Source: Sphingomonas sp. LC-1
Lineage (GTDB): Bacteria > Pseudomonadota > Alphaproteobacteria > Sphingomonadales > Sphingomonadaceae
Direction of reading: 5' to 3'
Length of the DNA: 64,000 nt
Assembly (NCBI RefSeq): GCF_025371035.1
Contig: NZ_JANZXB010000001.1
Coordinates: 186,001 to 250,000 of the forward strand
Part shown: piece by piece, positions 14,899 to 38,739 of the stretch
How positions within the stretch are numbered: position 1 is the first letter of the stretch
How the letters are laid out: every line of letters begins with the position of its first letter
Position numbers and translations under genes: made by a program
Notes under the pieces: model-generated
The model's database searches: none
What the model was told of the DNA's origin: nothing
What the model saw: only the letters and a program-made list of their open reading frames with translations

Positions 14899-16221
14899 TT
14901 ACTTGCCCGAATGGACGATCCGGTTGACGAGATTCTCGATCCGCTCCTGACGGCCCGAACGCGGGCGGGGATCGACCGCCTTCTGCTCGGCGAGGTCCGC
15001 GATGCCGGCCAGGTCGAGGCCACCGATCTGCTGACCGAAATCGCCGTCCCAACCGGCATAACGCTCGGCCTTGATCGCATCCAGGCGACCGTCCTCGATC
15101 AGCGCGGCCGCGTTGAGCAGGCCCTTGGCGACGACGTCGATGCCACCGACATGGCCGTGGAACAGATCGACCGCATCCATCGACTGGCGGCGAACCTTGG
15201 CGTCGAAGTTGAAGCCGCCGGTGGTGAAGCCACCCGCGCGGATGATTTCCAGCATCGCCAGAGTCAGTTCCTCGACCGAGTTGGGGAATTGGTCGGTATC
15301 CCAACCATTCTGGTGGTCGCCGCGATTGGCGTCGATCGATCCGAAGATGCCCAGCGCACCGGCGGTGGCGATCTCGTGCTCGAAGGTATGACCCGCCAGC
15401 GTCGCGTGGTTCGCCTCGATATTGACCTTCACTTCATTCTCTAGGCCGTACGCCTTGAGGAAGCCGTACACGGTCGCCGTGTCGAAGTCGTACTGGTGCT
15501 TGGTCGGCTCGTGCGGCTTCGGCTCGATCAGGATGGTGCCGTTGAAGCCAATCTTATGCTTGTGCTCGACGACGAGGCTGAGGAAGCGGCCCAGATTGTC
15601 GAGTTCGCGCTTCATGTTGGTGTTGAGCAGCGTCTCGTAACCCTCGCGGCCGCCCCACAGCACATAGTTGGCGCCGCCCAGGCGATGCGTCGCTTCCAGC
15701 GCGTCGCGGACCTGCATCGCACCGAAGGCATAGACTTCGGGGTCCGGGTTGGTCGCGCCACCGGCGGCGAAGCGCGGATGGCTGAACAGGTTGGCGGTGC
15801 CCCAAAGCAGCTTGCGGCCCGACGAGGCCTGGAGCTTTTCGAGGTGATCGACCGCCTCGGCGAAGTAACGGCGATGCTCGGCCACGCCCTGCGCATCGGC
15901 CATTACGTCGACATCGTGGAAACAGTAATAAGGCACGTCGAGCTTCGAGAAGAAGTCGAACGCGACCTCACGCTTCTGGGCGGCAGCCGCGCTGTCATTG
16001 GCACCGGCATGCCAGGGGCGGTTGAAGGTGCCGCCGCCGAACACGTCCGAACCCGGCCAGCAGAAGGTATGCCAGAAGCAGGCGGCGAAGCGGAGATGCT
16101 CCTCCATCGTCTTGCCCAGCACGACGCGGTTCTTGTCGTAGAAGCGATAGGCCAGCTCATTGTCGCTGTCCGGGCCTTCGTAACGGATCGTCGGGATGTC
16201 GGCGAAAAAATCGGTAGCCAT
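14899..16221 (-). CDS. xylA: Xylose isomerase
   Basis: 440 residues, the class II xylose isomerase length. It converts D-xylose to D-xylulose in the cytoplasm. Hallmarks are [22 protein letters not shown] at the start, YYCFHDVD (catalytic His), [28 protein letters not shown] and [19 protein letters not shown] (metal ligands). The start at 16221 gives [10 protein letters not shown]; the frame open upstream is a shadow of xylB. Only one base separates the xylB stop from this start, so it is the third gene of the GH43-xylB-xylA operon. Confidence 0.98.
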
Positions 16222-18820: not shown

Positions 18821-18866
18821 CGCTTTCTCTCTCCCATTCGCCCCGTATCCAGGGCTTTGACGGCAC

Positions 18867-18878
18867 GATAGCGCTATC
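18867..18878. promoter_or_regulatory. LacI-type operator in GH43-xylB-xylA promoter (site 1)
   Basis: A perfect palindrome GATAGCGCTATC, 46 bases upstream of the GH43 start. On the minus strand it overlaps the -10 of a candidate promoter: TTGCAT at plus 18889-18894, then TATCGT 18 bases on. It shares the core TA-n-CG-n-TA with five other sites in this locus and resembles the XylR xyl-box known from other proteobacteria. Confidence 0.65.
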
Positions 18879-18933
18879 AGCGGCGAGGATGCAAGGCCGG
18901 TTCGTCGTTTTCCGGGGACAGCTGTTCCGCATG

Positions 18934-19018
18934 GCCTTCGACTTCGCTCAGGCTGAACGGAGCGCGAGATCAGGGCGCCTCATCCCATCATCCGTTCAGC
19001 CTGAGCGAGGTCGAAGGC
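18934..19018. repeat. REP-like inverted repeat
   Basis: Two 27-base arms, 18934-18960 and 18992-19018, are reverse complements with one mismatch, separated by a 31-base loop. The outer core GCCTTCGACTTCGCTCA recurs at 29499-29515. It lies between the divergent GH43 and esterase promoters, so it is not a simple terminator. Such elements are typical dispersed palindromes of sphingomonads. Confidence 0.7.
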
Positions 19019-19045
19019 AAACGGATTCCCCCTCCGCGCCGACGC

Positions 19046-19083
19046 TTGACAATGCTAGCCCCGCCCTGTTGGTAACGATATTC
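19046..19083 (+). promoter_or_regulatory. Esterase promoter with LacI-type operator (site 2)
   Basis: TTGACA at 19046-19051 is a consensus -35. About 18 bases downstream, TGGTAACGATATTC (19070-19083) covers the -10 region and contains the shared core TA-A-CG-A-TA. The right half of the palindrome is weak, so this is the poorest of the six sites. Confidence 0.45.
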
Positions 19084-19162
19084 AGGCCCCGCTCATCCCG
19101 TTGCGGGTCGACCCTTTCGTAAAGACCGGTACGCTTATGCCGGCGCGATTTCAGGACAGAGG

Positions 19163-20242
19163 ATGACCCGCATGGCCCTTCGCTTTTCGCCCTCTTGCTG
19201 GCTGTTCGCCGCCGGTGTCGCGCTGCTGCCGCTCTCCGCCCTTCCCGCGCAGATGGCGACGCAGACCCCCCCCACGGTACCGGGGGCCAAGCCCGTCACG
19301 GTCGAGCGGATCAAGGTCCATTCGACCGCCATCGACGGCAATCTGGAGGGCAATAGCGCGGACCGCGACGTGATCGTCGTCCTGCCGCCCGACTATGCGA
19401 GGAACAAGGCCCGCCGCTATCCGGTCGTCTATGCGCTGCACGGCTATTCGATCGGTGCGGACCAATGGACCAAGGAAATCCATGTGCCCGCCTCGATCGA
19501 AGGCGCCTTTGCGCGCGGGGTGCCGTCGATGATCCTCGTCTTTCCCGACAGCAAGACGATGCACAACGGGTCGATGTACTCCTCGTCGCAGACGGTGGGC
19601 GATTTCGAGCGGTTCATCAGCCACGACCTGATCGCCGCGATCGATACGCGCTACCGCACCATCGCCCGGCGCGAAAGCCGGGGCCTGGCAGGTCATTCGA
19701 TGGGCGGATACGGCACCGCGCGGATCGGAATGAAGCATGCCGACATGTACGGCGCCATCTATATGATGAGCCCCTGTTGCCTGTCGCCGCGCATGATGGC
19801 CCGGCCCGAAGGCACCGACGAAAAGTTGCTGAGCAGCCTTTCCTCGCCCAAGGAGTCCGAAAAGCTGAACTGGGGCCAGCGCGCGATGCTCGCCGCCTCG
19901 GCCGCCTGGTCGCCCAATCCGAAGAACCCACCGCTCTATCTCGACCTGCCGGTCAAGGACGGCAAGTTGCGCGAGGACGTCACCGCCAAGTGGCTGGCGA
20001 ACACCCCCCTCGCCTTTGTCGACCAATATGTCGCGCCCTTGCGCAGCTATCGCGCGATCGCGCTGGATGTCGGGTCGCAGGACGGGTTGAAGGCCGATGC
20101 CCAGGCGCTGCACGACGCCCTGGATCGCTATGGCATCGCACACCGGTTCGAAATCTACGACGGCGATCATGTCAACCGGATCGGCGTGCGCTTTCAGGAG
20201 CAGGTGCTTCCCTTCTTCGGCCGGTCGCTGGTGACGAAATGA
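19163..20242 (+). CDS. Secreted alpha/beta-hydrolase esterase (CE1/esterase-D-like)
   Basis: 359 residues. Residues 1-~30 are a signal peptide (CWLFAAGVALLPLSALPAQ). The esterase D/CE1 fold follows: VIVVLPPDYARNKARRYPVVYALHGY, nucleophile elbow GHSMGGYGTAR, an acid residue likely in DVGSQDG, and the catalytic His of YDGDHVNR. In a xylan locus it is likely to remove acetyl or feruloyl groups from xylan side chains; that substrate is inferred from neighbours. A second Met (MALRF) lies 9 bases downstream of the chosen start. It is monocistronic and convergent with the GH3 gene. Confidence 0.85.
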   Translation: MTRMALRFSPSCWLFAAGVALLPLSALPAQMATQTPPTVPGAKPVTVERIKVHSTAIDGNLEGNSADRDVIVVLPPDYARNKARRYPVVYALHGYSIGADQWTKEIHVPASIEGAFARGVPSMILVFPDSKTMHNGSMYSSSQTVGDFERFISHDLIAAIDTRYRTIARRESRGLAGHSMGGYGTARIGMKHADMYGAIYMMSPCCLSPRMMARPEGTDEKLLSSLSSPKESEKLNWGQRAMLAASAAWSPNPKNPPLYLDLPVKDGKLREDVTAKWLANTPLAFVDQYVAPLRSYRAIALDVGSQDGLKADAQALHDALDRYGIAHRFEIYDGDHVNRIGVRFQEQVLPFFGRSLVTK

Positions 20243-20247
20243 TCCGG

Positions 20248-20280
20248 GCCTGTTCCTCTCCTGCAAGGGGAGGAACAGGC
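20248..20280. terminator. Bidirectional terminator hairpin
   Basis: A perfect 11-bp stem GCCTGTTCCTC (20248-20258) / GAGGAACAGGC (20270-20280) with an 11-base loop, between the convergent esterase (ends 20242) and GH3 gene (ends 20288). It has no long T tract. Confidence 0.7.
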
Positions 20281-20287
20281 TGGCCGC

Positions 20288-22973
20288 TCAATCCGCGATG
20301 GGGCGAGTGCTATCGATCCGAAACGGTGTGCTGCGGGTCGGAACGCCCGTACCGGGCTGGCCCGAGCCGATCGAGACCCGATAGTCGCCCTTCATCACCA
20401 TCCGTGTGCCATCGGCATCGACCGCGCTCAGGTCACGCGGAGCCAGGTTGAAGGTCAGGCTGCGCCGCTCGCCGGGTGCCAGATGGACCCGCTGGAAACC
20501 GCGCAAAGCGATGCGCGGTGCGCCCTCGAGCTTGGGGAAGTCGAGGTAAAGCTGCGCCACCTCGTCCCCCGCGCGGCGACCGGTGTTGCGCACCTCGGTG
20601 GTGACGGTCATGCTCCCGTCCGCGTCCGAGCGGACCGAAAGCGGCGCATAGGCGAAGCTGGTATAGCTCAGCCCAAAGCCAAACGGATAAACGGGGGTGC
20701 CGGTAAAGTAACGATAGGTCCGCCCCTTCATCGCATAGTCGCCAAAGGGCGGCAGGTCCTCGACCGAACGGTAGAAGGTCAGCGGCAAGCGACCCGCCGG
20801 GTTGGTCTTGCCCGACAGGACGTTGCCGACCGCCAGCCCCCCGGCCTGCCCCGGATACCAGGCTTCGACGATCGCATCCGCATTGGCCTTGGCCCAGGCG
20901 AGGTTCACCGGGCTGCCGTTCATCAGCACCACGACCAGCGGGCGGCCGGTCGCCTTGGCCTGTTCGAGCAGCGCCTGTTGCTCGGCGGGCAGGTCCAGCG
21001 TCGTCTTGTCGCCGCCCTTGAAGCCGGGCACGGAGATCGGCGCCTCCTCCGCCTCCAGATCGGAGGTCAGGCCGACGACCGCGACCAGCGCGTCGCTCGC
21101 CTTCGCCGCCGTGCGAAGCTCGCCCGCCGGATCGTCGGATACGCGCTTCCAGACAAGGTTGATGCCGGTCAGGATTCGCGCCTCGGTCGTGACGGTGATC
21201 GGGTAGCGACGCCCCTTTTCCAGCGTGACGGTCCTCATCGTCGGCAGGCTGTTCCATGAGGCCTTGGTCAGATCGACAAAGGGCTGCCCCTCAAAGGTCA
21301 TCGCCCCGTTGAAACCCGATATGCCCAGCCGATAGCGTCCGCTCTCCGGTGGAACGAGATAGCCGGTCCAGACCGCCCGATGCACGTCGCGGACCGAGGA
21401 CAGATCCAGGCTGCGCGAGGCGGCATTGGCCTCGACACGGGTGACGACGGGGCGATCCTCGAACCGCGCAGTCTTCAGCCATTCGCCCAGCGCACCGGGG
21501 GCGAAGCGTTCGGGAATCCGGCCCAGGACGTTGTAATAGCGGGCGAGAAGGCCGGGCTGCCCCTCTTCGGTCTGGAGCGCAGCGGTCGGAATCGGGTCGC
21601 CATCGGTGAAGGTCTCGGCGAAGGGCACATAGCGGATCTGCGCCCCTGGCATCGCGCGCCGCAGCCCGTCGACCACCGAGAATGCCGGTCCCGACAGCGA
21701 CGAGGAATAATTGCCGCGCAATACGCGCGTCGCATCGCCGAGCGGGCCGATCACCGCAATCCGGGCGCTGGGCTTCAGCGGCAATATGCCCTTGTTCTTC
21801 AGCAGCACCAGGCTCTTCTCCGCCACCTCCAGCGCAAGTGACCGATGCGCGGGCGTGTCGATGTCGGCGGCGGAACTGGTCTGGATCGATAGCGGACGCA
21901 GGCCGGGCAGGTCGCCCGTGCGATAGCGCGCCGCGAACAAGCGGGTCAGCGAGCGGTCGACGTCCGCGACCGAGATCAACCCGCGCGACAATGCCTCGCG
22001 ATAGGGATTGGTCAGCCCATCGGTATCGGTCAGCGTCGCATTGTTGCACTCGTTATCGACGCCCGCGCGCATCGCGGCGGCAACCGCGCTGGCGGCGTCG
22101 GGGGCGTAATGATGATTGGCGGCAATGTCCTTCACCGCGTCGCAGTCGGACACGACATAGCCGCGAAAGCCCCAGCGTCCGCGCAGATAATCCTTGAGCA
22201 GCAGGTCGCTGCCGCAGGCGGGTTGTCCGTCGATGCGGTTATAGGCACACATGATCGAACCCGCGCCGCCCTCTACGATCGCCGCGCGGAAGGCGGGGAG
22301 GTAGGTATCGACCAGATCGTGGCGCGAGACATAGACATTCGCCTCGTGCCGCGTGGATTCCGGGCCGCTATGCACCGCATAATGTTTGGGCGTCGCGACC
22401 ACGTCGATCCGCGTCGGGTCGGTGCCCTGCATGCCCCGCACGAAGGCCACGCCCATCTTCGCGGTCAGATACGGGTCTTCGCCATAGGTCTCCTGCCCCC
22501 GGCCCCAAGCGCGGATCGCGGAAGATGTTGATGTTGGGCGACCAGGTGTCGAGCCCGGTGCCGATCCGTCCCATTCGCCCCGTCTGGCGAGCGAGCGCGT
22601 GGAGCCCGCGCACCTCGCTGCTGATCACCTGAGCCGCGCGGCCGACCAGCGCATCGTCGAAGGTCGCGGCCAGCCCGACCGGTTCCGGGAAGTTGGTCGT
22701 CGGCACCGGCCCAAGGGCGCCGTGGAGCGACTCCGTCCACCAATTATAGGCGGGCACGTCCAGCCGGGCGATGGCGGGGGCGGTGTTGAGGAGTTGCGCC
22801 AGTTTCTCGTCGGTCGTCATGCGCGCGACCAGACGGACTGCCAGTGCCTCGGCCTGGTCCACCCCGTCGGTCGCCGGAGCCACCGCCGTTCCGCCCTCCT
22901 GCGCTTGTGCGATGGCGGCCTGCGCTGTTGAAAGCGCCAGGACGGACAAGACCGATGCACGCCATGATCTCAT
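20288..22973 (-). pseudogene. GH3 beta-xylosidase, interrupted by a one-base frameshift
   Basis: Two overlapping frames together encode one ~894-residue GH3 enzyme. The 5' frame (22973 to ~22507) gives a signal peptide, then TTDEKLAQLLNTAPAIARL and NINIFRDPR. The 3' frame continues with MGVAFVRGMQGTDP, the nucleophile motif GYVVSDCDAV, a PA14 insert (~GYLVPPESGRYRLGISGF) and a C-terminal Fn3-like domain. Deleting one A of the AA at 22507-22508 (plus strand) restores DPRWGRGQETYGEDPYLTAK, the exact family motif. So the break is either a recent inactivating mutation or a sequencing error. If intact it would release xylose from xylo-oligosaccharides in the periplasm. It is divergent from GH27 and carries an operator in its promoter. 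Confidence 0.9.
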
Positions 22974-22997
22974 GACAATCCACTCCCATGATGTTTT

Positions 22998-23011
22998 TGT
23001 TACCGTTATCA
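22998..23011. promoter_or_regulatory. LacI-type operator in GH3 promoter (site 3)
   Basis: TGTTACCGTTATCA, an imperfect palindrome with core TA-C-CG-T-TA, 25 bases upstream of the GH3 start. On the minus strand it overlaps the -10 of a candidate promoter (TGGACA, 16 bases, TAACGG). Confidence 0.6.
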
Positions 23012-23088
23012 GCCGCGCGATGCCTGTCCAGCCGACAAATCCTCCGCAATCGATCGCGGTCGGTGGACAGCCGCGGATTAGTCCGACA

Positions 23089-23102
23089 AGATAGCGTTAA
23101 AA
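23089..23102. promoter_or_regulatory. LacI-type operator in GH27 promoter (site 4)
   Basis: AGATAGCGTTAAAA with core TA-G-CG-T-TA. It overlaps the -10 (AAGATA, 23088-23093) of a candidate promoter whose -35 is TGGACA at 23064-23069. It precedes GH27, first gene of the GH27-GH10-GH43-GH43 run. Confidence 0.55.
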
Positions 23103-23120
23103 CAGATTGGGAGGATGGCT

Positions 23121-25043
23121 ATGCCCCGGACAATGCGGATGATTTTGGCATGCAGCGTGGCGCTGCTGGGACTGGCGAGTCCTCTGTCTGCGCTCGCGCA
23201 AACGGCAAGTGTCGATCCGCTCGCGCCGACCGGCCGATGGAGCGCGAACGATCAGGGGCAGGCCGCCCTGCCGCCCATGGGGTGGAATAGCTGGAATGCC
23301 TTCAACAGCGACGTCGACGAGGAAAAGGTGATGGCCTCGGTCAAGCTGATCGCCGACAAGGGGCTGCGCGAGGCGGGCTATCGCTACATCAATATCGACG
23401 ATGGCTGGTGGCTGCGCCGTCGCCAGCCCGATGGTCGCATGGTGATCCGCGCCGACAAATTCCCGTCTGCCGCAGCCGGTCCCAACCAGCAGACCAGCTT
23501 TCGCCCATTGACCGACCGGCTCCACGCCATGGGGTTCAAGGCGGGCATCTATTCAGACATCGGCCGCAACAGTTGCGGCCAGGTCTATACGCCCAATTTC
23601 GCCAACCAGCCCGAGGGAAGCATCGCCGAACGCGAAGTCGGGCTATACGGGCACGCGGATCAGGACATCGCACTCTATTTCGGCGAATGGGGTTTCGACT
23701 ATATCAAGGTCGATGGGTGCGGCATTCGTGGATTGGGCAAGGATGCCGACCATGTCCGCAAGGGCGATTACCGTGAACTGACCCCGTTGATCGACATGAA
23801 CGCGCTGGCGCGGACCGATATTCCCGCCGTGCGCGCGCTGTACGATCAGGTCGCGGCGGCCCTGAAGCGCGAAAATCCGGATGGCGACTATATCTTCTCG
23901 CTCTGCCTGTGGGGTTCGGCGGATGTGCGGTCCTGGGGCAAGCAGATCGGCAATGTCTCGCGCACCAGCGATGACATCACCGCGCACTGGTCGCGGATGC
24001 TGACCAATTTCGACACCAGCGCCACCCGAGCGCTCTATGCCCATCCGCATGGCTGGAACGACCCCGACATGCTGTTCGTCGGATCGGGCGAATTCGACGC
24101 GAACCACATGACCGAGGCGCGTTCGCACTTCGCGCTGTGGGCGATGATGAACGCGCCGCTGCTGATCGGCTTCGATCTGCGCCAGGCCAATGCGGAACAG
24201 ATCGCGCTGCTGGGGAACCGGGCGATCATCGCGCTCAACCAGGACCCGGCCGGGCATCAGGCGATCCCGGCCTATCTATCGGACGATGTGCAGATTTTCG
24301 TGAAGACGCTGGCCAATGGAGACAAGGCGGTGGCGATCCTGAACCGCACTGCCTCCCCCGTCACTCCCGTCCTGACCGCCGATCACCTGAAGCTGCGCGG
24401 CGACCGCCCGGTGGCGATGACCGACCTGTGGACCAGGCAGAAGAGTCGCTTTTCGGGTGAGACGAAGCTGACGCTCGCACCGCACCAGACGCTGATCTTC
24501 CGCGTGTCGGGCGAACGTCGCCTGCCGCGCGGCCATTATCTGTCGGAGACGCCGGGCGACGTGAACCCGGCGGAGGACGGCATCCGCACTCCCGAAGGCG
24601 ATCCGACCATCCATCACGAACTCAGCCCCTGGGGCGGCACCAAGGGGCCGGGCGACTTCCCGCAATATGGCGGCTGGGGTGGTGCGCAGGCGGACCGCAC
24701 GCCGTTCGGACGGCCGCTGCACCTGGCGGGCAAAGTCTATGATACCGGGCTGGGCGTGCTCGCCAATTCGCGGCTGGAGGTGCGCAACCCCGGCCAGTCC
24801 CGGTTCGGCGCCACGATCGGCATCGATGACTCCGCGACGGCGCGCGGTCGACGCGTGGTGTTCGAAGTCTATGGCGACGGCAAGCTGCTCGCCCGCTCGC
24901 GTCCCATGGCCCTGAACGACGCGCCGGCGACGATCGAGGCGGATGTGCGCGGCCGCAAGCTGATCGAACTGGTCGCCCGTGCCGATAGCGCTCCCGATGC
25001 CGCCCTGCCGGTGACTTGGGCCGATGCGCGGCTACTCGACTGA
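23121..25043 (+). CDS. GH27 alpha-galactosidase with C-terminal NPCBM domain
   Basis: 640 residues. Signal peptide at 1-~27 (MILACSVALLGLASPLSALAQ). The GH27 TIM barrel starts at PPMGWNSWNAF; IDDGWW follows, the nucleophile is Asp198 in YIKVDGCG, and the acid/base is likely in SRTSDDIT (~284-285). A beta-sandwich follows the barrel, then an NPCBM-type domain (~500-640; GGWGGAQADRTPFG...YDTGLGV). GH27 releases terminal alpha-galactose, and some members act on beta-L-arabinopyranose. I chose ATG 23121 because TTGGGAGG (23107-23114) is 6 bases before it; an ATG at 23115 touches that ribosome site. GH10 follows after 94 bases. Confidence 0.9.
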   Translation: MPRTMRMILACSVALLGLASPLSALAQTASVDPLAPTGRWSANDQGQAALPPMGWNSWNAFNSDVDEEKVMASVKLIADKGLREAGYRYINIDDGWWLRRRQPDGRMVIRADKFPSAAAGPNQQTSFRPLTDRLHAMGFKAGIYSDIGRNSCGQVYTPNFANQPEGSIAEREVGLYGHADQDIALYFGEWGFDYIKVDGCGIRGLGKDADHVRKGDYRELTPLIDMNALARTDIPAVRALYDQVAAALKRENPDGDYIFSLCLWGSADVRSWGKQIGNVSRTSDDITAHWSRMLTNFDTSATRALYAHPHGWNDPDMLFVGSGEFDANHMTEARSHFALWAMMNAPLLIGFDLRQANAEQIALLGNRAIIALNQDPAGHQAIPAYLSDDVQIFVKTLANGDKAVAILNRTASPVTPVLTADHLKLRGDRPVAMTDLWTRQKSRFSGETKLTLAPHQTLIFRVSGERRLPRGHYLSETPGDVNPAEDGIRTPEGDPTIHHELSPWGGTKGPGDFPQYGGWGGAQADRTPFGRPLHLAGKVYDTGLGVLANSRLEVRNPGQSRFGATIGIDDSATARGRRVVFEVYGDGKLLARSRPMALNDAPATIEADVRGRKLIELVARADSAPDAALPVTWADARLLD

Positions 25044-25137
25044 GCCCGATCGATACGGATGGACGTCGTCGTTGGATGGCCTTGCCGTTTCTGGGTGGCC
25101 ATGCAACTGTCCTGACAAAGGAAAAAGGGAGAGGGTG

Positions 25138-26274
25138 ATGAAACCCAATTGGCAAGGGCCGGTGCTGACCCGTCGTCAGCAACTGGCCGGTATGACGGGC
25201 GGTCTGGTAATGGGAGCGCTCCCGTCTGTGGCATGGGCCGCTGGTTCGGACGTGCCGCTTCGCGATCTGGCCGCGCAAAAGGGCATCCTGTTCGGCACCG
25301 CGATCAGCGCTGGCCGGGGCTCGCCGATCAACGACCCCGCTTATGCCGCGGTCGTCACGCGCGAATGCGCGACGCTGGTGCCCGAGAATGAGATGAAGGT
25401 CTATGTCGTCGGCAATGATCCCCGACATCTGAACTTCGCCCCCGCCGACCGTATCGCGGGGTTCGCGCGTGACCATCGTATGAAACTACGTGGGCACACG
25501 CTGCTGTGGAATTACGAAAAATATATATCGCCCGCATTGGCCGAGCAGGTCCGTACCACGGGGGCAGAGACATGGCTCCGCGCCTATATCGCACAGGTCG
25601 CGGGCCATTTCGGCGATCAGATCTATAGCTGGGACGTGGTCAACGAGACGATCAATCCCAAGACCGGCCAGATCCGGGGCACGGTGTTCGATCAGGCACT
25701 CGGCTTCGACATATTCAAGATCGCCTACGACGCCGCGCGCGAGCACGCCCCCTATGCCCAGCGCGTCTATAACGATTACATGTCGTGGGAAGTCGGCAAC
25801 GAGGCCCACCGCGCGGGCGTGCTCCGCCTGCTGGAGCGGTTCCGCAAGGAGAATGTCCCCGTCGATGCGCTCGGCATCCAGAGCCACCTGGGCAATGACG
25901 GCAGCCATTCGCGCATCCAGCAGGCGGAGTGGAGGCGTTTCCTCGATGCCGTCACCGCCATGGGCTATCGCCTGCTGATCACGGAATTCGACATCAACGA
26001 CCGCGAAATGCCGCGCGACGTGGCGCAGCGCGATGCGAAGACGGCGGCGGTGGCGCGCGACTATCTGGACATGATGTTCTCCTATCCGCAGCTCGACCAG
26101 TTCCTGTGCTGGGGCCTGTGGGACAAGCATAGCTGGCTGAACGGCTTCGCGCCGCGCGGCGACGGACTGCCGCAGCGCCCCCTGCCCTATGACGATGCGT
26201 TGAAGCCGAAGCCGCTCCGCGCCGCCATTGCCGACGCTCTGCGCGCCGCCCCCGTTCGAAAGGGTATTGCATGA
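25138..26274 (+). CDS. GH10 endo-1,4-beta-xylanase
   Basis: 378 residues. The N-terminus has a twin-arginine-like signal (TRRQQLAGMTGGLVMGALPSVAWA), so export may use Tat. The GH10 barrel follows: ATLVPENEMK, RGHTLLWN, acid/base Glu170 in SWDVVNE and nucleophile Glu283 in LLITEFDI; CWGLWDKHSWL closes the barrel. It cuts internal xylan bonds to give xylo-oligosaccharides, the key depolymerase of the locus. It starts at 25138 after a GGGAGAGGG ribosome site; an upstream extension is not homologous. Its stop overlaps the next gene by ATGA. Confidence 0.96.
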   Translation: MKPNWQGPVLTRRQQLAGMTGGLVMGALPSVAWAAGSDVPLRDLAAQKGILFGTAISAGRGSPINDPAYAAVVTRECATLVPENEMKVYVVGNDPRHLNFAPADRIAGFARDHRMKLRGHTLLWNYEKYISPALAEQVRTTGAETWLRAYIAQVAGHFGDQIYSWDVVNETINPKTGQIRGTVFDQALGFDIFKIAYDAAREHAPYAQRVYNDYMSWEVGNEAHRAGVLRLLERFRKENVPVDALGIQSHLGNDGSHSRIQQAEWRRFLDAVTAMGYRLLITEFDINDREMPRDVAQRDAKTAAVARDYLDMMFSYPQLDQFLCWGLWDKHSWLNGFAPRGDGLPQRPLPYDDALKPKPLRAAIADALRAAPVRKGIA

Positions 26275-29491: not shown

Positions 29492-29497
29492 TCCCTT

Positions 29498-29536
29498 GGC
29501 CTTCGACTTCGCTCAAGCCAAGCGAAGTCGAAGGCC
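29498..29536. repeat. REP-like perfect palindrome, possible bidirectional terminator
   Basis: Two perfect 16-base arms, GGCCTTCGACTTCGCT (29498-29513) and its reverse complement (29521-29536), with a 7-base spacer. It shares GCCTTCGACTTCGCTCA with the repeat at 18934. It lies in the 63-base gap between the convergent GH43 and halogenase genes, where it could end transcription from both sides. Confidence 0.7.
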
Positions 29537-29554
29537 ACGCATCACCCTCAACGC

Positions 29555-31099
29555 CTAGATTGTCGGCAATCCCCGCTCGACGATCTTGCGGATCAGGTCG
29601 CGGTGGCGAGGCAAGCCAGCGAGCATCCGCCCCGTCTGCACGTCATTTTCGCGGCGCGCACGCTCGGCGACGATGGCTTCCGCCTCCAAGCTGCCGGGGG
29701 CGATCTCGGTCCGCTGGCCCATGCCGTAGAGGACATATTGATAACTTGCCGAGGGGAAGACCTCCTCCACCCGGTCGAACTCGTCATGCATCCACGGCGC
29801 CTGGTAACGCCATAACTCCATCAGCGCCTGCAACCGATCGGGCATCGTCTCGGGACGGCAATTGTCACGCCAGAAGTCGCTATCGGTCCGCTTCGTCAGC
29901 GAGTAATGCAGCTTCAGGAAATCGACGATCCTCCCCCAGCGATAGAGGGTCGTATCGTTAAAGCGCCGCGCGACCGTGTCCATCACCTCGCGACAGGCGG
30001 GCATCTGCTCGGCGATCAGCTTGGCCGACAGCTCGATGAGCACGATGGCCGAGGCTTCCAGCGGTTCGAGGAACCCGGCGGCCAGCCCGACCGCCACACA
30101 GTTGCGCTCCCAGAAACGGATCCGGTGCCCGGCCCTGATCTTCAGCTCGCGCACCGGCAGGTCGCGACCCGCATCACCCAAATAGGCGCGCAATTCCCGT
30201 TCCGCTTCGTCGCGGTCGATATGGCTGCTGGAAAAGACATGTCCCACGCCGCGCCGGGTGGGCAGGCCGATGTCCCATATCCATCCCGAGGACTGGGCGG
30301 TCGAAATGGTGTGGGACGCGATCGGCGCATCCGCATCGTCATAGGGCACCTGGATCGCCAGCGCCGTGTCGCAGAACAGCACATCGTTCAGCGGCTTGAA
30401 CGGCACCCCCATCGCCTCGCCCAGCAACAGCGAGCGAAAGCCGGTACAGTCGACGAACAGGTCGCCCGTCACCTCGCCCGCCTGCGCCGTCCGCACGGCG
30501 CGAATATCACCGTTTTCGGTCAACGACACCTGTTCGACATCGGCCAGGACATGGCGCACGCCCAGTTGCTCGCAGCAATGGCGGCGGAGGAAGTCGGCGA
30601 ACTTTCCTGCGTCGAGATGATAGGCGTAATTGGCCAGCGCTTCATATTCGGGGGTTGCGATCGTCTTGGGGGCGAGGCCCGCGTCGCAAATCCGCCCCTG
30701 CGGTGTCACCGCGTCGCAGAAGCTGCCATCCCCCTCACCCACCAGCCAGTGCGGCGCGAGGTTCACCTGCCCGAAGCTTTGCGGCAGCATCAACGGGTGG
30801 TAATAACCGTCATCCGCCGCGCCGGTGGTCCAGCGGTTGAACCGCGCGCCCTGTTTGAACGAGGCGTCGCATTCGCGGAAGAACGCGGTTTCCGACACGC
30901 CCATGCGTTTCAGGGTCGTGCGCAGCGTCGGCCAGGTCCCCTCGCCCACGCCGATGATCGGGACATTGGGGGCTTCGACCAAAGTGACGGTGAAGCCATG
31001 CGGCCGCCGCCCCTGATGCCGCGCGGCGATGACGCCCGCGGTCAGCCATCCGGCAGTACCGCCGCCGACGATCACGATATTCTGAACGGGCTGAACCAT
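29555..31099 (-). CDS. Flavin-dependent tryptophan-halogenase-family protein
   Basis: 514 residues. FAD-binding GGGTAGW at ~12-18, ASFKQGARFNRW with a lysine (~82) at the place of the halogenase catalytic lysine, and FLEPLEASAIVLIE near residue 340 all mark the tryptophan halogenase family. The WxWxIP motif reads WIWDIGLP: both tryptophans are kept but Pro is replaced by Gly. The family makes HOX from FADH2, oxygen and halide and uses it on aromatic rings. Relatives next to TonB receptors are known, but their natural substrates are not. It follows the receptor by 70 bases on the same strand. The ATG at 31099 is preferred to an in-frame TTG at 31117. Confidence 0.88.
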   Translation of the reverse strand: MVQPVQNIVIVGGGTAGWLTAGVIAARHQGRRPHGFTVTLVEAPNVPIIGVGEGTWPTLRTTLKRMGVSETAFFRECDASFKQGARFNRWTTGAADDGYYHPLMLPQSFGQVNLAPHWLVGEGDGSFCDAVTPQGRICDAGLAPKTIATPEYEALANYAYHLDAGKFADFLRRHCCEQLGVRHVLADVEQVSLTENGDIRAVRTAQAGEVTGDLFVDCTGFRSLLLGEAMGVPFKPLNDVLFCDTALAIQVPYDDADAPIASHTISTAQSSGWIWDIGLPTRRGVGHVFSSSHIDRDEAERELRAYLGDAGRDLPVRELKIRAGHRIRFWERNCVAVGLAAGFLEPLEASAIVLIELSAKLIAEQMPACREVMDTVARRFNDTTLYRWGRIVDFLKLHYSLTKRTDSDFWRDNCRPETMPDRLQALMELWRYQAPWMHDEFDRVEEVFPSASYQYVLYGMGQRTEIAPGSLEAEAIVAERARRENDVQTGRMLAGLPRHRDLIRKIVERGLPTI

Positions 31100-31169
31100 G
31101 GGAGTGGAAAGGTCCAAGAAGCGGCGGGGATGTCAAGCCGAAGCCCGACATCCCCACCAATGGCTATCG

Positions 31170-34100
31170 TCAGAAGCGATAGCGCGCGCCGAGGGTGAAG
31201 CGCCGACCGTAATCGAACACGTCGAGCAGCTGGTTCTTGAACCGGCCATGGGTGCTCTGCTTGTTCTTGTTGATGTTCAGCGCCTCGGCGAAGATCGAGA
31301 AGTTCTTGGTGACGTCATAGCTGCTGGTCAGATCGACCTGGAAGCTCTGGTTCACGAAGGTCGGCTCGGCGCCATAGGAGCCCGTATTCTGGTTCTGGCC
31401 AAAGCCCGACAGATATTCGTCACGCCAGTTCAGCGCGGTGCGGAACTGGAAGCCGTTCTTGTCATAGAACCCAACGAAATTCGCCGAATTCGCCAGGCCC
31501 GTCACCGCGAAACCGCTCTGCCCGACGATCTTGGGGTCATAGGGCTTGTTGGTGTTGACGAAGGTGGCGTTCGCTTGGAAGCCGAAGCCGCTGTCGCCGA
31601 AGACCTGCTGCCAAGCCAGCTCAACGCCGCGCACCGTCGCATCCGGGCCGTTGACCTGCGCCGAAATGGCGAAGACCGCCGGACGGCCCGTGGTCGGGTC
31701 GATCACGTTGTTCACCGTCTGGTTGGTGACACCGCCGACGATGAAGTTGCTGACATTCTTCAGGAAGAAGTCGACCGCCAGATACGAGTTGCGCTGGTAA
31801 TACCATTCCGCCGCGACGTCGAAATTGTCGGCGAGATACGGCTTCAGGTTGGGATTGCCGCCGCTGCCCGACAGGGCGCCGACGCGCTGCCCGTTGCCGA
31901 TGCCGACCACGGGGTTGAGCAGGCTGAGGCCCGGACGAGTCAGCGTACGCGATGCGTCGAAACGCAATTGCAGCTTGTCGGTCACTTCCAGTCGCAGGTC
32001 GAGCGAGGGTAGCAGGTACGAATAGCTGCTGCTGCTGGCCACCGGCTGCGTGTCGGTAAAGGCAATCGACAGCAGCGACGGGTCGGCGGTCGAAGTGGTG
32101 ATGACCGTCGGCTGGCGCCCCTGTCCGACCGAGTTCAGTCGCGTATTCTCGTTGCGCATGCCGATCGCGATATGCAGCGGCATGTTCGCCACCTGCGCCT
32201 CGATCGCGGCACTGAAGAACAGCGACCAGGTCTTTTCGTTGACGCGCAGGATGCTGCCCGGATCGACCTGCTCGACGAAGCGCCCGGTAAAGCCGTTCAG
32301 GCCATTGCCCGCGTCGCCCGGCGCCGGATAGTTGAAGCCCGGAATATTCTGCGCATAGGGATTGCCCAGCCCCGACAGATAAGCCTGATAGGCCGCCGGG
32401 CTGTAGACCAGGACCGATGGCGGCAGGCTGCCCGAGAAGCCCGAGATGAAGTTATTGAGGCTGATCGATCCCTGATACAGCCCGGCGGGCAGCGGCGAGA
32501 TGCCCGTCGTACGACCCGACGGCGCGCCGTAACCGGCATAGGCCTGCCAGAAATTGTTGGTGAAGGTGCTGCGGTTCAGCAGGTTGAAGGTGTCGTCGGT
32601 ATATTGACCGCCCGCCTTCAGGACGAGATTCTCTTCCTTCCAGGTTGCGACGCCACGGAATTGCTTCAGCTCGTCGGTGTTCTTCTGGGTCTGGAGCACG
32701 GTGACGTGCGAACCGATAAGCGACGGATCGGCCCAGGCCGCGCCATTGCCGGCGGGACCGAAATTGCTGATCGTCGGGAATGCCTTGTTGCTGTTCGCGG
32801 TGACGTTGAAGCCCAGATTGGTGCCCAGCGCGCCGCCATAGCCGATGTCGCCGTTGCTGCTGCCGATCGTGTTGCCGGGGTTCAGCCAGCTCTTGGCATA
32901 GGCGCCGTCCGCCTCGACCGTCAGCTTCTCGTTGACGTCCCACTTGACGTTCAGGCCGGTCTGGTTGGTCTGAAGGATCTGCTTGTTCATCGCCGCGGTG
33001 AAGTCGGTCGGCGACCCCGCCTGGGTAAAGCTGACCGCCGTGCCGTTGGCGTCCTGCGTCACGTTGCGCAGGTCGGGCTGGCTGAACCAGACGCCGAAGC
33101 CATAGACGTCGGTCGAGATGGTCTGGCGCGAGAAGTTGTTGTCCAGCGTGACCATCAGGTCGTTATTGGGATGCCATTGCAGCGCGATGCGGCCATCGAC
33201 GCGTTCGTCCTTCGTCTGCTGCTGCTCGGCGCCATATTGCTGCGGGAACCAGCCGGTCAGGGTGCGGCGGTTGCTGGCGGCGGCGCTGGCATCGTCGGTC
33301 GGCGCGCAGGTGGCGGCAGTGCTGCCGGCGAGCTGACAGGGGGCGAAGTTGCCGCCCGGCCAACCCGACACGTAAACGCGGTTGGTATCGGTATCACGCC
33401 GCGTGTAGATGAAGCTCGACAGGATACCGACCGTGTCATTGGCGAAGGTATCGCTGACCAGCGCGCCGAGCGTCGGGACGACATGCCCCGCCCGGTCCTG
33501 AAGCGAGCCCGAAGCACTGGTCGCCACGCGGAAGCCGGGATGGTCGAACGGCTTGGGGAACTGGATGTCGACGGTCGCGCCGATCGAGCTGGACGCCAGC
33601 GTCACGTCGGGCGTCTTCAGCACGCTCAACTGACCGATAAAGTCCGAACCGACGGTGCTGAAGTCGATCTGACGACCACCCGTCGCGGTCGAGATGCGAC
33701 GACCGTCATAGAGGGTGGTGTTGAAGTCGCCGCCAAAGCCGCGAACGGTGATACCGGTCGGCTCGCCGCGCGCGCCGGAACGCTGAATCGACACGCCAGG
33801 CAGACGCTGAAGCGACGCCGCGACGTTCGAATCAGGAAATTTACCAATATCTTCCGCGGAGATGGCGTCGACCACGCCGGTCGCGGTCCGCTTGATGTCG
33901 AGGTTGCGCTGGAGCGAGCTGCGCAGGCCGGTGACGATGATCTCGCCCTCCGACACCTCGCCCGCGGGGGACGGCGCATTGTTCTGCGCGCTGGGGGCGG
34001 TCGCCTGATCCTGCGGGGTTCCGGCTTCCTGTGCGGTGGTGGTGTTGGCTTGAGCCGGGGTGTCCGGGCGAACGGCTCCAGGAGCCGTAGTCTGAGCAAA

Positions 34101-34205
34101 GGCCGCGCCGGGCGCGATCATCGCCAGGGCCATCAGCGGCGACACGCCGGTCATCAGGCCACGGCGCGACACGAATGCGCCTACAAAGCTAGTGCGAGAC
34201 ACCAT
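31170..34205 (-). CDS. TonB-dependent receptor (carbohydrate type)
   Basis: 1011 residues. Long signal region at ~1-40, an Ala/Gln/Thr-rich spacer, a plug starting near EGEIIVTGLRSSLQRNLDIK with FPDSNVAASLQRLPGVSIQRS and ITVRGFGGDFN, and a 22-strand barrel ending ...GARYRF. There is no STN signalling domain, so it imports rather than signals. The length and spacer are typical of sphingomonad/Caulobacter polysaccharide receptors. Location suggests uptake of xylo-oligosaccharides. The start at 34205 follows AGGGGAAG; the frame extends upstream without homology. A promoter and operator lie 75-103 bases upstream. Confidence 0.95.
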   Translation of the reverse strand: MVSRTSFVGAFVSRRGLMTGVSPLMALAMIAPGAAFAQTTAPGAVRPDTPAQANTTTAQEAGTPQDQATAPSAQNNAPSPAGEVSEGEIIVTGLRSSLQRNLDIKRTATGVVDAISAEDIGKFPDSNVAASLQRLPGVSIQRSGARGEPTGITVRGFGGDFNTTLYDGRRISTATGGRQIDFSTVGSDFIGQLSVLKTPDVTLASSSIGATVDIQFPKPFDHPGFRVATSASGSLQDRAGHVVPTLGALVSDTFANDTVGILSSFIYTRRDTDTNRVYVSGWPGGNFAPCQLAGSTAATCAPTDDASAAASNRRTLTGWFPQQYGAEQQQTKDERVDGRIALQWHPNNDLMVTLDNNFSRQTISTDVYGFGVWFSQPDLRNVTQDANGTAVSFTQAGSPTDFTAAMNKQILQTNQTGLNVKWDVNEKLTVEADGAYAKSWLNPGNTIGSSNGDIGYGGALGTNLGFNVTANSNKAFPTISNFGPAGNGAAWADPSLIGSHVTVLQTQKNTDELKQFRGVATWKEENLVLKAGGQYTDDTFNLLNRSTFTNNFWQAYAGYGAPSGRTTGISPLPAGLYQGSISLNNFISGFSGSLPPSVLVYSPAAYQAYLSGLGNPYAQNIPGFNYPAPGDAGNGLNGFTGRFVEQVDPGSILRVNEKTWSLFFSAAIEAQVANMPLHIAIGMRNENTRLNSVGQGRQPTVITTSTADPSLLSIAFTDTQPVASSSSYSYLLPSLDLRLEVTDKLQLRFDASRTLTRPGLSLLNPVVGIGNGQRVGALSGSGGNPNLKPYLADNFDVAAEWYYQRNSYLAVDFFLKNVSNFIVGGVTNQTVNNVIDPTTGRPAVFAISAQVNGPDATVRGVELAWQQVFGDSGFGFQANATFVNTNKPYDPKIVGQSGFAVTGLANSANFVGFYDKNGFQFRTALNWRDEYLSGFGQNQNTGSYGAEPTFVNQSFQVDLTSSYDVTKNFSIFAEALNINKNKQSTHGRFKNQLLDVFDYGRRFTLGARYRF

Positions 34206-34279
34206 CTTCCCCTCTCCTACGTTTCTATGTTCCTGCGCGACCGGTGTTGTGCCCACCGTACCGCCCATTCGATGCCGAT

Positions 34280-34308
34280 ATGTTAGCGGTATAACGGATG
34301 CTTAACAA
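34280..34308 (-). promoter_or_regulatory. TonB-receptor promoter with LacI-type operator (site 5)
   Basis: Minus strand: TTGTTA (plus 34303-34308), 17 bases, TAACAT (plus 34280-34285), a good sigma-70-like promoter. The operator-like TGTTAGCGGTATAA (plus 34281-34294, core TA-G-CG-G-TA) covers the -10. The leader would be about 60-65 bases. Confidence 0.6.
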
Positions 34309-34446
34309 GCCATTTGTCAGAGCGTTCTCGAGCCGCTAGTCCCTCGCCTTGACGAGCGGCTCGTGGAGACGGACAAACCGGGGGCTCGTCGCCCGGATCG
34401 TGCGCGCCGAACCGGGATGGAGAGGAATCGAAAGGACCGAATCGCC

Positions 34447-35136
34447 ATGGCCGAAATGGAATTGCTCGACAGCGCGCAGCATGCCGCCCTTCGCGTCTCG
34501 ACCGCGCCCGATGCCGGCCGCCACTTCGTGCAACTGGTAGCCGAGGAGTTCCTCGATGCCGCGCTGCACTACCCTATCCTCTTTGCGCGCCATCCCGAAA
34601 CGGGCGATCTCTATCCCGGTGCGCTGATGGGGTTGGTGCCGGACGAAAATCTCTGCCTCGCCCCGAACGATGCGTTGGCCGGTTATCGCCCCGCCGATCT
34701 GGAGCGGCAGGGTTTCTATGTGTCGGGCGAGAATATCGCGATCGACCGCGACCATGCCGCGCTGGCCCAGGGGCAAGGAGACCCGGTCTTCGAAATGGAT
34801 GGCGGGGCGGCCCCGGCGCTGCGTCGCGTGCAGGCTGCGCTGCGGCGCCTGCATGTCGGATTGCCGCAAACGGAGGCCTTTATCCAGCGGATGATGGCGC
34901 ATAAGCTGGTCGAGCCGATCGACCTGAACTTCCAGTTCGACAATGGCGAGTCCCTGAGGCTGGACTCGCTCTACACCCTCGGCCTCGATACGCTGCACGC
35001 GCTGCCCGACGAGGTGGCACTGACGCTGTTCCGTTCGGGCGATCTGCAACTTGTCTATGCCATCACCGGATCGGTGCGGCACCTGCCCTTCCTCGCCCGC
35101 CGACGCAATGACCGGTTGAGCGGACTGGCGCGGTGA
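34447..35136 (+). CDS. SapC family protein
   Basis: 229 residues. The pattern VQLVAEEFLDAALHYPILFARHPETGD, PGALMGLVPDENLC, YRPADLERQGFY and LHVGLPQTEAFI matches the SapC family, whose members stand beside TonB receptors and halogenase-like genes in sphingomonads, Caulobacter and xanthomonads. The biochemical function is unknown; it has no signal peptide. ATG 34447 (MAEMELLDS) is preceded by AAAGGA. It is divergent from the receptor and overlaps the cupin gene by GTGA. Confidence 0.85.
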   Translation: MAEMELLDSAQHAALRVSTAPDAGRHFVQLVAEEFLDAALHYPILFARHPETGDLYPGALMGLVPDENLCLAPNDALAGYRPADLERQGFYVSGENIAIDRDHAALAQGQGDPVFEMDGGAAPALRRVQAALRRLHVGLPQTEAFIQRMMAHKLVEPIDLNFQFDNGESLRLDSLYTLGLDTLHALPDEVALTLFRSGDLQLVYAITGSVRHLPFLARRRNDRLSGLAR

Positions 35137-36140
35137 GCGGCGCGGCGGTCGAGATCGACATCGCGCGGCTCGACGGACCGGAGGCGTTTCGGCGGCTGGT
35201 GGCCGAACCCTGTCGACCGGTCGTGCTACGCGGCGCGGTGCGCGACTGGCCGCTGGCAAGGATCGCCGGGGGCGATGCCGCCGCGCTGCAGGACTATTTC
35301 ACCCGGTTCGACGCGGGTCGGCAGGTGGAAGCCTTTGTCGGCGATGCCGCGATCGCGGGGCGCTACAACTATACCGAAGACCTTTCGGGTTTCAATTTCC
35401 GCCGCGAGTCGATGCCGCTACGCGATGCCATTGCCCGCATCGTCGCGGGCAGCGATACGGACGAGACGCTCTATGTCGGATCGCTGCCCATTCCCCTGGT
35501 CCTGCCGGGCATGGCGGAGGAGAACCGTCTGGCTTTCGTACCGGCCGGTGTCGCGCCGCGCATCTGGATCGGCCATGCCTCGACCATCGCCTGTCACTAC
35601 GACATGATGGACAATATCGCCTGCGTGGTCGCGGGACAGCGGCGCTTCACCCTCTATCCCCCCGAGGCGATCGGCTACCTGTATGTCGGACCGATCGATC
35701 ATAATATGGCGGGGCAGCCAGTCGCCCTCGCGGCTGAGGCCAGCCCCGACGATCCCCGCTATCCCCGGTTCGAACAGGCGCGAAGCCAGGCGATCACCGT
35801 CGACCTTTCGGCGGGCGATGCGCTCTATATGCCCAAACTGTGGTGGCACCGGGTCGAGGCGAGCGGGACGCTCAATATCCTGGTCAACTACTGGTGGGAC
35901 GCTTTCCCGGTCGGCGCGGACCAGCCCTTCGCCACCCTGCTCCTCGCGATGAGCGCGATTGCCGCCCGGCCGGAGGTGGAGCGCGCGGCGTGGCGGGCCT
36001 GGTTCGACCATTATGTGTTCCGCCCCGATGGCCACCCGCTGGCGCATCTGCCCGAAGAACGGCACGGGATATTGGGCATGAGCGCGGAAAATCTCGGCAT
36101 CCTGCGCGCCCATGCCATGCGCATGCTTCGCGGCGGCTGA
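35133..36140 (+). CDS. Cupin-8/JmjC-like Fe(II)/2-oxoglutarate oxygenase-type protein
   Basis: 335 residues of the cupin_8 (FIH/JmjC-like) family. A likely metal triad is His155 and Asp157 in CHYDMMDN and His239 in LWWHRVE; RRFTLYPPE is the strand that follows. The RPVVLRGAVRDWPLA N-terminus is also typical. Such proteins hydroxylate proteins or small molecules with 2-oxoglutarate and O2; the substrate here is unknown. It starts with GTG overlapping the sapC stop. With sapC, the halogenase and the receptor it forms the recurring four-gene module. It ends 9 bases from the convergent GH115. Confidence 0.85.
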   Translation: MSGAAVEIDIARLDGPEAFRRLVAEPCRPVVLRGAVRDWPLARIAGGDAAALQDYFTRFDAGRQVEAFVGDAAIAGRYNYTEDLSGFNFRRESMPLRDAIARIVAGSDTDETLYVGSLPIPLVLPGMAEENRLAFVPAGVAPRIWIGHASTIACHYDMMDNIACVVAGQRRFTLYPPEAIGYLYVGPIDHNMAGQPVALAAEASPDDPRYPRFEQARSQAITVDLSAGDALYMPKLWWHRVEASGTLNILVNYWWDAFPVGADQPFATLLLAMSAIAARPEVERAAWRAWFDHYVFRPDGHPLAHLPEERHGILGMSAENLGILRAHAMRMLRGG

Positions 36141-36149
36141 TCGACCGGG

Positions 36150-38621
36150 TCAGCGGGGCGACGCAGTGGGATCGAGCGTGATCCCCTCCACGACGACGTC
36201 GGGATCGACCAGCCACAGGGTCACGCGGTGCCGGCCCTGCGACAGCATGGGCAGGGCCAGGGTCGCGACGCGGCGATTTTCGATCACCGAGCGGCCCCAG
36301 TTCGCCTCGGTCTCACCGGCCATCAGGTTGAGCATGGTCGGCGCGCCGTCATCTATCGACACCGCGATGCGATGCTTGCCCCCGCCGCGCACGTCGAGGC
36401 CGGGCGCCGCCACGACACCCAGGGTCGCGGGGCCGGACCGATCCCAATTCATGTCATAGGCGATATGCGGACTGTCCCCGCCCGGCCGCTCGATCACGGG
36501 CGCGGAGGCCGGTGTCGCGACCATCGCCGCCCCCTCGGCCGTAAAGCCCGCCACAGCTTCCCACCGGATGCCGCGTCCATCAACCGCACGCCCGGCATCC
36601 GCCGCGATCCGCAGGCGTGGCGAAGGGGTCGAAGGCGTCAGCGGCAACGGCTTCGCGACCGTCGCCAGCGTGGGCATCACGTCGGCATCGGGCTGTTGCC
36701 AGCCGGTATAGCCGATATGCGTCTGTGCCATCATGCTCGGCCATTTGCCGCCCGCCGTCTCAACCTCATAGCGACGACGAATTTGCGCATCGCGGGCGAA
36801 ATAGCCCCGCGCCGCTGTCGCAAAGCGCTCCGCCGCCGCGCCGTCCCCGGCCTGGGCGGCGGCACGATTGGCGGCGACGGCCTGATACAGGCGATGCAAA
36901 TTGGTCATCGCCTCGACCCGGTGCAGGACCAGTTCGTAATAGGAGTCACGTAGATTCTCGGGCAGCCGCGCCTCGACCGACCGCGCGTCCCTGTCGAGCG
37001 CATTCCATTCGCCCAGCACGCGGTCCCATTCCCCACCTGTCAGGTCATAGGTCGTCGCATCGATCAGTTCGGGTTTCCGACGGCTCGCCAACCGACCATA
37101 GCGGGTCAGCAGCGCACCGATCTCCGCCCCGCGCGCCGCGCCGAACTGCTGTGCCGCCCAGCGCGTCGGATAGGCCTGCATCGCTGCCAGATCCATCCGC
37201 GCCGGGTTCCATGCTATGTCGAGGAAGAAGCTGGTCGGATATTCCATCGGCTTCAGGTCGCCGACATTGACGATCCACAGCCGATCCGCACCGAACTGGT
37301 CGGCCATGCGCATCTGCTGCCACACGCGTGGAATGGCATTGGTGTCCAGCCACTTGTAGTTGCGCGGACCGCCGACATAATCGAAATGATAATAGACACC
37401 CGCCCCGCCCGCGCGCCGTTCGCCCAGCGGGGGCAGGCGCCGGATATTGCCCCAATTGTCGTCGGCGAACAGCAGGGTCACATCGTCGGGAACGCGCATC
37501 CCCTTGTCGTAATAATCCTGCACTTCCTTGTAGAGCGCCCAGACCTGCGGCGTTTCGGCGGCGGGTCGTTTGGTGACGTCGGCGATGATCCGGCGCTGGT
37601 CCCGGACGATGCGTTCGAGCAGATCGGTGGCGGTGCCCTCGGTCATCGGCTCGTCGCCGTCGCCGCGCATCCCGATCGTCACCGGGTCCTCGGCCTTGCC
37701 GCGCCGCTCGATCCCCTTGCGCCAGAACGCGCGGAGGGCGTCGGCATTCCTGCTATAGTCCCATGGGCCGGTGCCCTCGCGTTTCCAGTCCGCCTGCGCG
37801 CGCTGCATCGGCTCGTGGTGCGAGGTGCCGAGCAGCACCCCCATCTCCTGCGCCAGCGGGGCGGAGGCCGGATCATCCTCCCATAGCGACTTGCCCCACA
37901 TGGCGGGCCACAGGAAATTGGCCTTGGAGCGCAGCAACAGGGTGAAGACCTTTTCATAGGCCAGGTGATTGACCCCGCCGAAGCTGGCCCGCGCCCAGCC
38001 GCCAAAGCCCGGCTCCTCGTCGTTGATGAAGATGCCGCGATACTTCACCACCGGGCGATCGGCGACGCGCCCCGCCGTCAGGTACAGGGTCGGGTGACGC
38101 TGCGCCGGGACATCGGCCCACCAGGTGCATGGGCTGACCCCCGCCTTGGCGCTGATGTCGTACAGGCCGAAAATGGTGCCGCGGCGATCCGCGCCCACGA
38201 TCACCAGTGCGCGCGCGACGCCCGGCATGGGATTGTCGACCACCTGCTGAACATAGCCTTCCCATTGGCCCGCCAGTCCCGACACGTCGAGCTTGCCCGC
38301 CTTGACCAGCGCGTCGATCGGCGCGCTATGTCCCAGCGTGCCTGCAATCACGCTGGCGCCGCGCGAGACATCCGTGCCCAGGCGGACGTCGCCGCCGCCG
38401 ACCGCCTTCAGGTCCGCAACCAGATCCCTTGCCGCGCGGGCTACGCCGGGCTCGTCCCCGGCATCCACGACGATCGTCGCGGTGCGGCCCGGCGCGAGCA
38501 AGGCCAGGCTTCCCGGTGCCGCCCGCTCGCACGCCACGACCGGCCCCGAACAATCCGCCGCCCAGGCCGCACCCGGCAACAGTGCCGTCAACGCGACGGA
38601 CAGGAAAAACTGGCGCATCAT
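36150..38621 (-). CDS. GH115 xylan alpha-1,2-glucuronidase
   Basis: 823 residues. Signal peptide at 1-~22 (QFFLSVALTALLPGAAWA). GH115 hallmarks: YRGIFINDEEPGFGGWA, LLRSKANFLWPAMWGKSLWEDDP, GTSHHEPMQRAQ, TIGMRGDGDEPM, LLFADDNWGN and YHFDYVGGPRNYKW. The enzyme removes (4-O-methyl) glucuronic acid from xylan, including internal residues, which exposes the chain to GH10. The last ~150 residues are the C-terminal beta domain. The start is one of two adjacent ATGs (38621 or 38618) after GGGAG. It is divergent from the SGNH esterase. Confidence 0.94.
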   Translation of the reverse strand: MMRQFFLSVALTALLPGAAWAADCSGPVVACERAAPGSLALLAPGRTATIVVDAGDEPGVARAARDLVADLKAVGGGDVRLGTDVSRGASVIAGTLGHSAPIDALVKAGKLDVSGLAGQWEGYVQQVVDNPMPGVARALVIVGADRRGTIFGLYDISAKAGVSPCTWWADVPAQRHPTLYLTAGRVADRPVVKYRGIFINDEEPGFGGWARASFGGVNHLAYEKVFTLLLRSKANFLWPAMWGKSLWEDDPASAPLAQEMGVLLGTSHHEPMQRAQADWKREGTGPWDYSRNADALRAFWRKGIERRGKAEDPVTIGMRGDGDEPMTEGTATDLLERIVRDQRRIIADVTKRPAAETPQVWALYKEVQDYYDKGMRVPDDVTLLFADDNWGNIRRLPPLGERRAGGAGVYYHFDYVGGPRNYKWLDTNAIPRVWQQMRMADQFGADRLWIVNVGDLKPMEYPTSFFLDIAWNPARMDLAAMQAYPTRWAAQQFGAARGAEIGALLTRYGRLASRRKPELIDATTYDLTGGEWDRVLGEWNALDRDARSVEARLPENLRDSYYELVLHRVEAMTNLHRLYQAVAANRAAAQAGDGAAAERFATAARGYFARDAQIRRRYEVETAGGKWPSMMAQTHIGYTGWQQPDADVMPTLATVAKPLPLTPSTPSPRLRIAADAGRAVDGRGIRWEAVAGFTAEGAAMVATPASAPVIERPGGDSPHIAYDMNWDRSGPATLGVVAAPGLDVRGGGKHRIAVSIDDGAPTMLNLMAGETEANWGRSVIENRRVATLALPMLSQGRHRVTLWLVDPDVVVEGITLDPTASPR

Positions 38622-38660
38622 CACTCTCCCGCACCCCGGAGAGATGGATCCCCATGGGCT

Positions 38661-38694
38661 TTGTCATTGGCCTTGCCGATCGTTATCGCTACCA
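38661..38694 (+). promoter_or_regulatory. SGNH esterase promoter with LacI-type operator (site 6)
   Basis: TTGTCA (38661-38666), 17 bases, TATCGC (38684-38689). The operator-like CGTTATCGCTACCA (38681-38694, core TA-T-CG-C-TA) covers the -10. It sits between divergent GH115 and the esterase and might serve both. Confidence 0.6.
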
Positions 38695-38739
38695 TGAGGC
38701 TATGCCGCAAGCGCGGATCGACATGAGGAGGGGATGGAC

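Follow-up and report, generated by a model that had tools for sequence, protein, structure and literature searches.

According to our analysis, the xylan locus of this Sphingomonas, a member of the S. zeae group, carries palindromic sites, here called predicted xyl-boxes, that are very probably the operators through which a LacI repressor of the XylR type, encoded in trans on contig C12, switches the xylan genes. The locus lies within a 64,000-nucleotide stretch of DNA, called here the window. The boxes stand ahead of its genes, they are conserved in relatives, and boxes of this kind are associated with the C12 LacI family. Judged from the sequence, breakdown, uptake and use of the xylan sugar are probably switched together. 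In the absence of inducer a dimer of the C12 LacI protein would occupy the boxes and block the promoters of the xylan genes; an inducer, probably D-xylose or a xylo-oligosaccharide product, would free the repressor, and the xylan hydrolases, TonB import, the xylE-like transporter and xylAB would come on together, with distant glucuronate and oxidative genes turned on along with them. A regulon of this kind, testable and with its candidate regulator named, would join xylan breakdown, TonB import and xylose isomerase, probably also glucuronate and oxidative genes.

All six site sequences reported by the first-pass annotation are present in the window, the first, given as a 12-mer, belonging to a 14-mer frame with its start at 18866, and in coordinate order they differ from the consensus TGNTANCGNTANCA by 1, 2, 0, 2, 1 and 1 mismatches. 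The four with at most one mismatch are found ahead of GH43-xylBA, GH3, the TonB receptor and GH115/GDSL. The gene names given to the xylan locus agree with the protein families found by profile matches, and the distances below refer to gene starts from a codon-usage caller. The minus-strand operon GH43-xylB-xylA begins with a GH43 enzyme (17681..18820, PF04616), followed by the FGGY carbohydrate kinase XylB (16223..17671, minus strand, PF00370 and PF02782) and the xylose isomerase XylA (14899..16221, minus strand; TIGR02630, 655.8 bits, cut-off 533); its box, CGATAGCGCTATCA (18866..18879, minus strand), is 45 bp upstream of the operon start at 18820. A weak box with two mismatches, TGGTAACGATATTC (19070..19083, plus strand), is 79 bp upstream of the esterase gene (19163..20242, plus strand, PF00756).

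The mismatch-free box TGTTACCGTTATCA (22998..23011, minus strand) is 24 bp upstream of the ATG at 22973 of the GH3 gene (20288..22973, minus strand, PF01915/PF00933). Being 109 bp upstream of GH27, it possibly serves that gene also. GH27 (23121..25043, plus strand, PF16499), the first gene of a GH27-GH10-GH43-GH43 series, has in addition a doubtful box with two mismatches, AGATAGCGTTAAAA (23089..23102, plus strand), 18 bp upstream, so that both boxes fall within the short GH3/GH27 gap. Aligned to the intact 886-aa GH3 of S. zeae, the GH3 gene runs in two frames that change near 22413-22507, either because the gene has decayed or because the sequence contains an error. Ahead of the TonB-dependent receptor gene (31170..34205, minus strand; TIGR01782, 560.4 bits, cut-off 310), TGTTAGCGGTATAA (34281..34294, minus strand) is located at 75 bp. 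Tryptophan-halogenase-like, SapC and cupin genes (29555-31099 and 34447-36140) also accompany this receptor gene in those relatives that were examined. The last box, CGTTATCGCTACCA (38681..38694), was assigned by the annotation to the SGNH esterase; the site does stand ahead of that gene, and we widen its target to two divergent genes, GH115 (36150..38621, minus strand, PF15979) and the GDSL/SGNH esterase (38734..40002, plus strand, PF13472), from which it is 59 and 39 bp upstream, respectively.

Conservation was followed in S. zeae (G149, locus L222), where the entire locus is present in the same order. Five of the six sites are kept there: among their specified positions 1 of 50 has changed, as against 5 of 20 unspecified ones and 329 of the 785 columns in the flanks. 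The count leaves out the broken site 23089 and becomes 4 of 61 specified columns with the sixth site included. The boxes at 18866 and 38681 are identical in the two genomes, and that at 34281 is conserved. The counterpart of 22998, TGGTAACGGTATCA, has changed at three unspecified positions and kept all specified ones, as would mark an operator. At 19070 the counterpart is TGGTAACGATACCC, with one mismatch. The best matrix score in S. zeae at the place of 23089 is -5.2. Among more remote relatives within the family, drawn from 149 genomes searched, with a box defined as at most one mismatch within 350 bp upstream of a called start, an upstream box was found at 12 of 15 GH43 loci (3 without; one further locus has a box with two mismatches and another a box ahead of the preceding gene), at 8 of 14 other GH3 loci (6 without) and, by strict count, at 4 of 8 TonB-receptor loci, two more having one at an uncertain distance. 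The figures are 3 of 15 for other GH115 loci (12 without) and 2 of 29 for other esterase loci (27 without). The esterase box at 19070, weak alone, owes its place among the candidates to S. zeae and few others.

A matrix was made from 59 sites of named genomes, mostly sites beside one LacI gene, with the three nearest genomes left out. Its six best positions in the window, best first, are 22998, 18866, 33383, 38681, 34281 and 23089, five of which belong to the annotated set. Site 23089, at rank 6, has 0 better positions in 160 kb of background, and site 19070, at rank 14, is unremarkable: per 100 kb of background, 5.6 positions score as well or better. Position 33383, an exact match, sits inside the TonB-receptor gene and arises from codons for RDTDT. 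We rejected it as an internal operator: the DNA match is kept in G112 and G125, but G055 keeps the residues while synonymous codons break the match, so that it is probably a coding coincidence.

The regulator had been expected outside the window, and indeed none of the 10 LacI places in the genome is inside it. The proposed search for a LacI-family gene adjoining another match led to contig C12, where one intergenic match is found between a LacI gene (L027:7774-8841), our candidate XylR, and a xylE-like transporter gene. The protein has the HTH and ligand domains along its whole length by profile search, as LacI/GalR regulators such as CcpA and RbsR do, but differs from these in that it reaches no NCBIfam equivalog cut-off; the transporter, a XylE-like sugar porter, scores well with the XylE model, below the equivalog cut-off. 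No box was found ahead of the candidate xylR gene itself in this genome. Orthologues of the C12 LacI adjoin GH43-xylBA in G055 and G112 and lie within a few kb of it in G045 and G125, and other relatives stand by xylE, GH67 and GH3. Of 581 related stretches the best 80, the nearest named LacI loci, were taken; an intergenic box is present at 60 of them and absent from 20. At the same loci 59 control palindromes give a mean of 1.6; the highest control, a shifted version of the same core, reaches 17, and the second highest 7. At these best 80 of 581 loci, boxes occur upstream of GH43 (6/7), FAA hydrolase (9/12), XylE (11/19), GH67 (11/23), ILVD/EDD dehydratase (5/12) and other genes (16/157). 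The comparison thus supports the annotation's reading of LacI-type operators that resemble the xyl-box and would tie degradation, import and catabolism into one regulon under a regulator encoded elsewhere.

The sites might instead be chance AT-rich matches near promoters, chosen because intergenic DNA is TA-richer; two of the six do carry two mismatches, and a likeness to the -10 element is built into the motif. Against this, the locus (14899-42387) has 4 intergenic matches with at most one mismatch to TGNTANCGNTANCA, while 59 permuted palindromes average 0.034 with a maximum of 1. At up to two mismatches there are 6 intergenic matches versus a control mean of 0.42, though one control, which carries the same TAnCGnTA core, gives 5 and another gives 4. 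The consensus was derived from the six sites themselves, therefore independent tests carry more weight, and both the conservation pattern in S. zeae and the matrix made from other genomes speak against chance. The annotation had named motif occurrence at random positions as often as in promoters as the outcome that would count against it. A pattern search of the whole genome found 34 places with at most one mismatch, of which 13 fall within genes and 21 are intergenic, as compared with 28 of 143 intergenic matches for control palindromes counted in the window and eight arbitrary 20-kb stretches (p about 3e-6, Fisher). Five of the 21 have no gene starting from them. As the pattern read backwards, taken as control, occurs at 11 and 194 places in the whole genome versus 5 and 34 for the real one, only placement, not total count, speaks for the motif. 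We consider the chance explanation almost certainly wrong; for four sites it is already refuted, and for 23089 it may still hold.

It could also be asked which LacI protein the boxes belong to, since a second LacI gene, on contig C3 (L026:5930-6970), adjoins a TonB receptor and an arabinanase-like gene. Its product is 48-53% identical to the C12 LacI and has almost the same recognition helix, and G125 carries a TAACGTTA-type box at its orthologue of the TonB-receptor gene, with a C3-type LacI gene on the same contig; both observations would suit an assignment of the window boxes mainly to the C3 paralogue. The boxes near the two kinds of genes differ at position 6, however, where A is found in 13 of 14 half-sites near C3-type LacI genes (7 sites chosen by hand) versus 18 of 114 in the C12-type set. 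Within L026:5930-11074, which takes in the C3 LacI gene, the arabinanase-like gene and the TonB receptor, the receptor has the perfectly palindromic box TGGTAACGTTACCA, whereas position 6 of the window boxes is G, C, T or A, and none of the six sites is A/A. We therefore regard ownership by the C3 paralogue as quite improbable, and this paralogue seems, from the boxes near its relatives, to use TAACGTTA and not TAGCGCTA. Somewhat less unlikely, though still doubtful, is that the sets of boxes bound by the two LacI proteins overlap and the locus answers two signals: the recognition helix is common to both, the window has mixed half-sites, and G112 and G125 also have both genes, yet the box classes near each gene are clearly distinct. 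One receptor gene bears either box class in different genomes, and we infer that the TonB receptor may have come under a different regulator in different lineages. More speculatively, and with somewhat more doubt than belief on our side, the two paralogues could split the pentose polymers between TAGCGCTA and the sister box TAACGTTA, with genes such as that of the xylan TonB receptor passing from one regulon to the other when positions 6 and 9 of their operator change symmetrically. Paralogue and sister box together make a small natural case of operator/regulator divergence.

Control by the C12 repressor would place the locus in a kind of regulon already described in Caulobacter and Xanthomonas, and the LacI paralogue with its sister box is the modest new point. 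The Xanthomonas xyl-box, in the excerpted text of PMC7748154 (citing Dejean et al.), is TGGTAGCGCTAACA, with repression by XylR; the four strong boxes of the window fit it and are likewise upstream of xylose or xylan genes. The excerpts describe for Xanthomonas campestris the same 14-bp palindrome, a LacI-type regulator, XylA, xylan enzymes and TonB receptors (PMC7748154; PMC1790865 for the TonB receptors and the palindrome). Unlike that system, ours belongs to the Sphingomonadaceae, its probable regulator is encoded in trans next to a xylE-like gene, and positions 6 and 9 show less regularity in the window boxes. A palindrome, there of 20 bp, is also upstream of the xylose-regulon genes of Caulobacter crescentus, and it also precedes Xanthomonas xylose genes and two xylose-induced TonB-receptor genes, according to the excerpted PMC1790865. 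A partial literature search returned no paper on a Sphingomonas XylR regulon, and the excerpted part of PMC10766802 holds nothing helpful on these groups.

Elsewhere in the genome intergenic matches mark other possible members of the regulon. They are found ahead of GH67 and of a MR/MLE-MFS pair with a TonB receptor nearby, of a SASA-type esterase, of UxuA/UxaC and a PfkB kinase, of GH9, of a TonB receptor accompanied by a tryptophan-halogenase-like gene, of another TonB receptor, and of an alpha/beta hydrolase and an M13 peptidase. A further match precedes a FAA hydrolase gene beside ILVD/EDD dehydratase, SDR and aldehyde dehydrogenase genes; this cluster (L038:7642-17641), which also includes an aldose epimerase gene and has its box ahead of the FAA gene, is by gene content a candidate oxidative pentose pathway alongside xylAB. 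Caulobacter, whose XylR is a LacI repressor, takes an oxidative xylose route. Unlike Caulobacter crescentus, this Sphingomonas genome has both xylAB and a candidate oxidative operon with a box.

The first-pass annotation had laid each operator over a -10 element. The sites are upstream of genes as it proposed and may overlap the -10, but promoter scoring lends this no support: for each box, the highest-scoring -35/-10 pair that overlaps it does not stand out from pairs obtained after shuffling the flanks (P 0.05-0.63, seven tests), in part because the motif has a -10-like look of its own. TTGACA, 17-18 bases ahead of the esterase box, and TTGCAT, ahead of the GH43 box, are both kept in S. zeae and would be compatible with a -10 overlap.

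Two smaller observations can be added. The recognition helix of the C12 LacI reads SLMTVSRVIN here (L027:7774-7940), in S. zeae and in S. pseudosanguinis (L222, L223), and SPMTVSRVIN in most other relatives seen; the SLM form may go with looser boxes. Between the GH43 and esterase promoters, at 18935-19020, there is a short inverted repeat, CCTTCGACTTCGCTCAGGCTGAACGG and its mirror, which is found elsewhere in S. zeae too.
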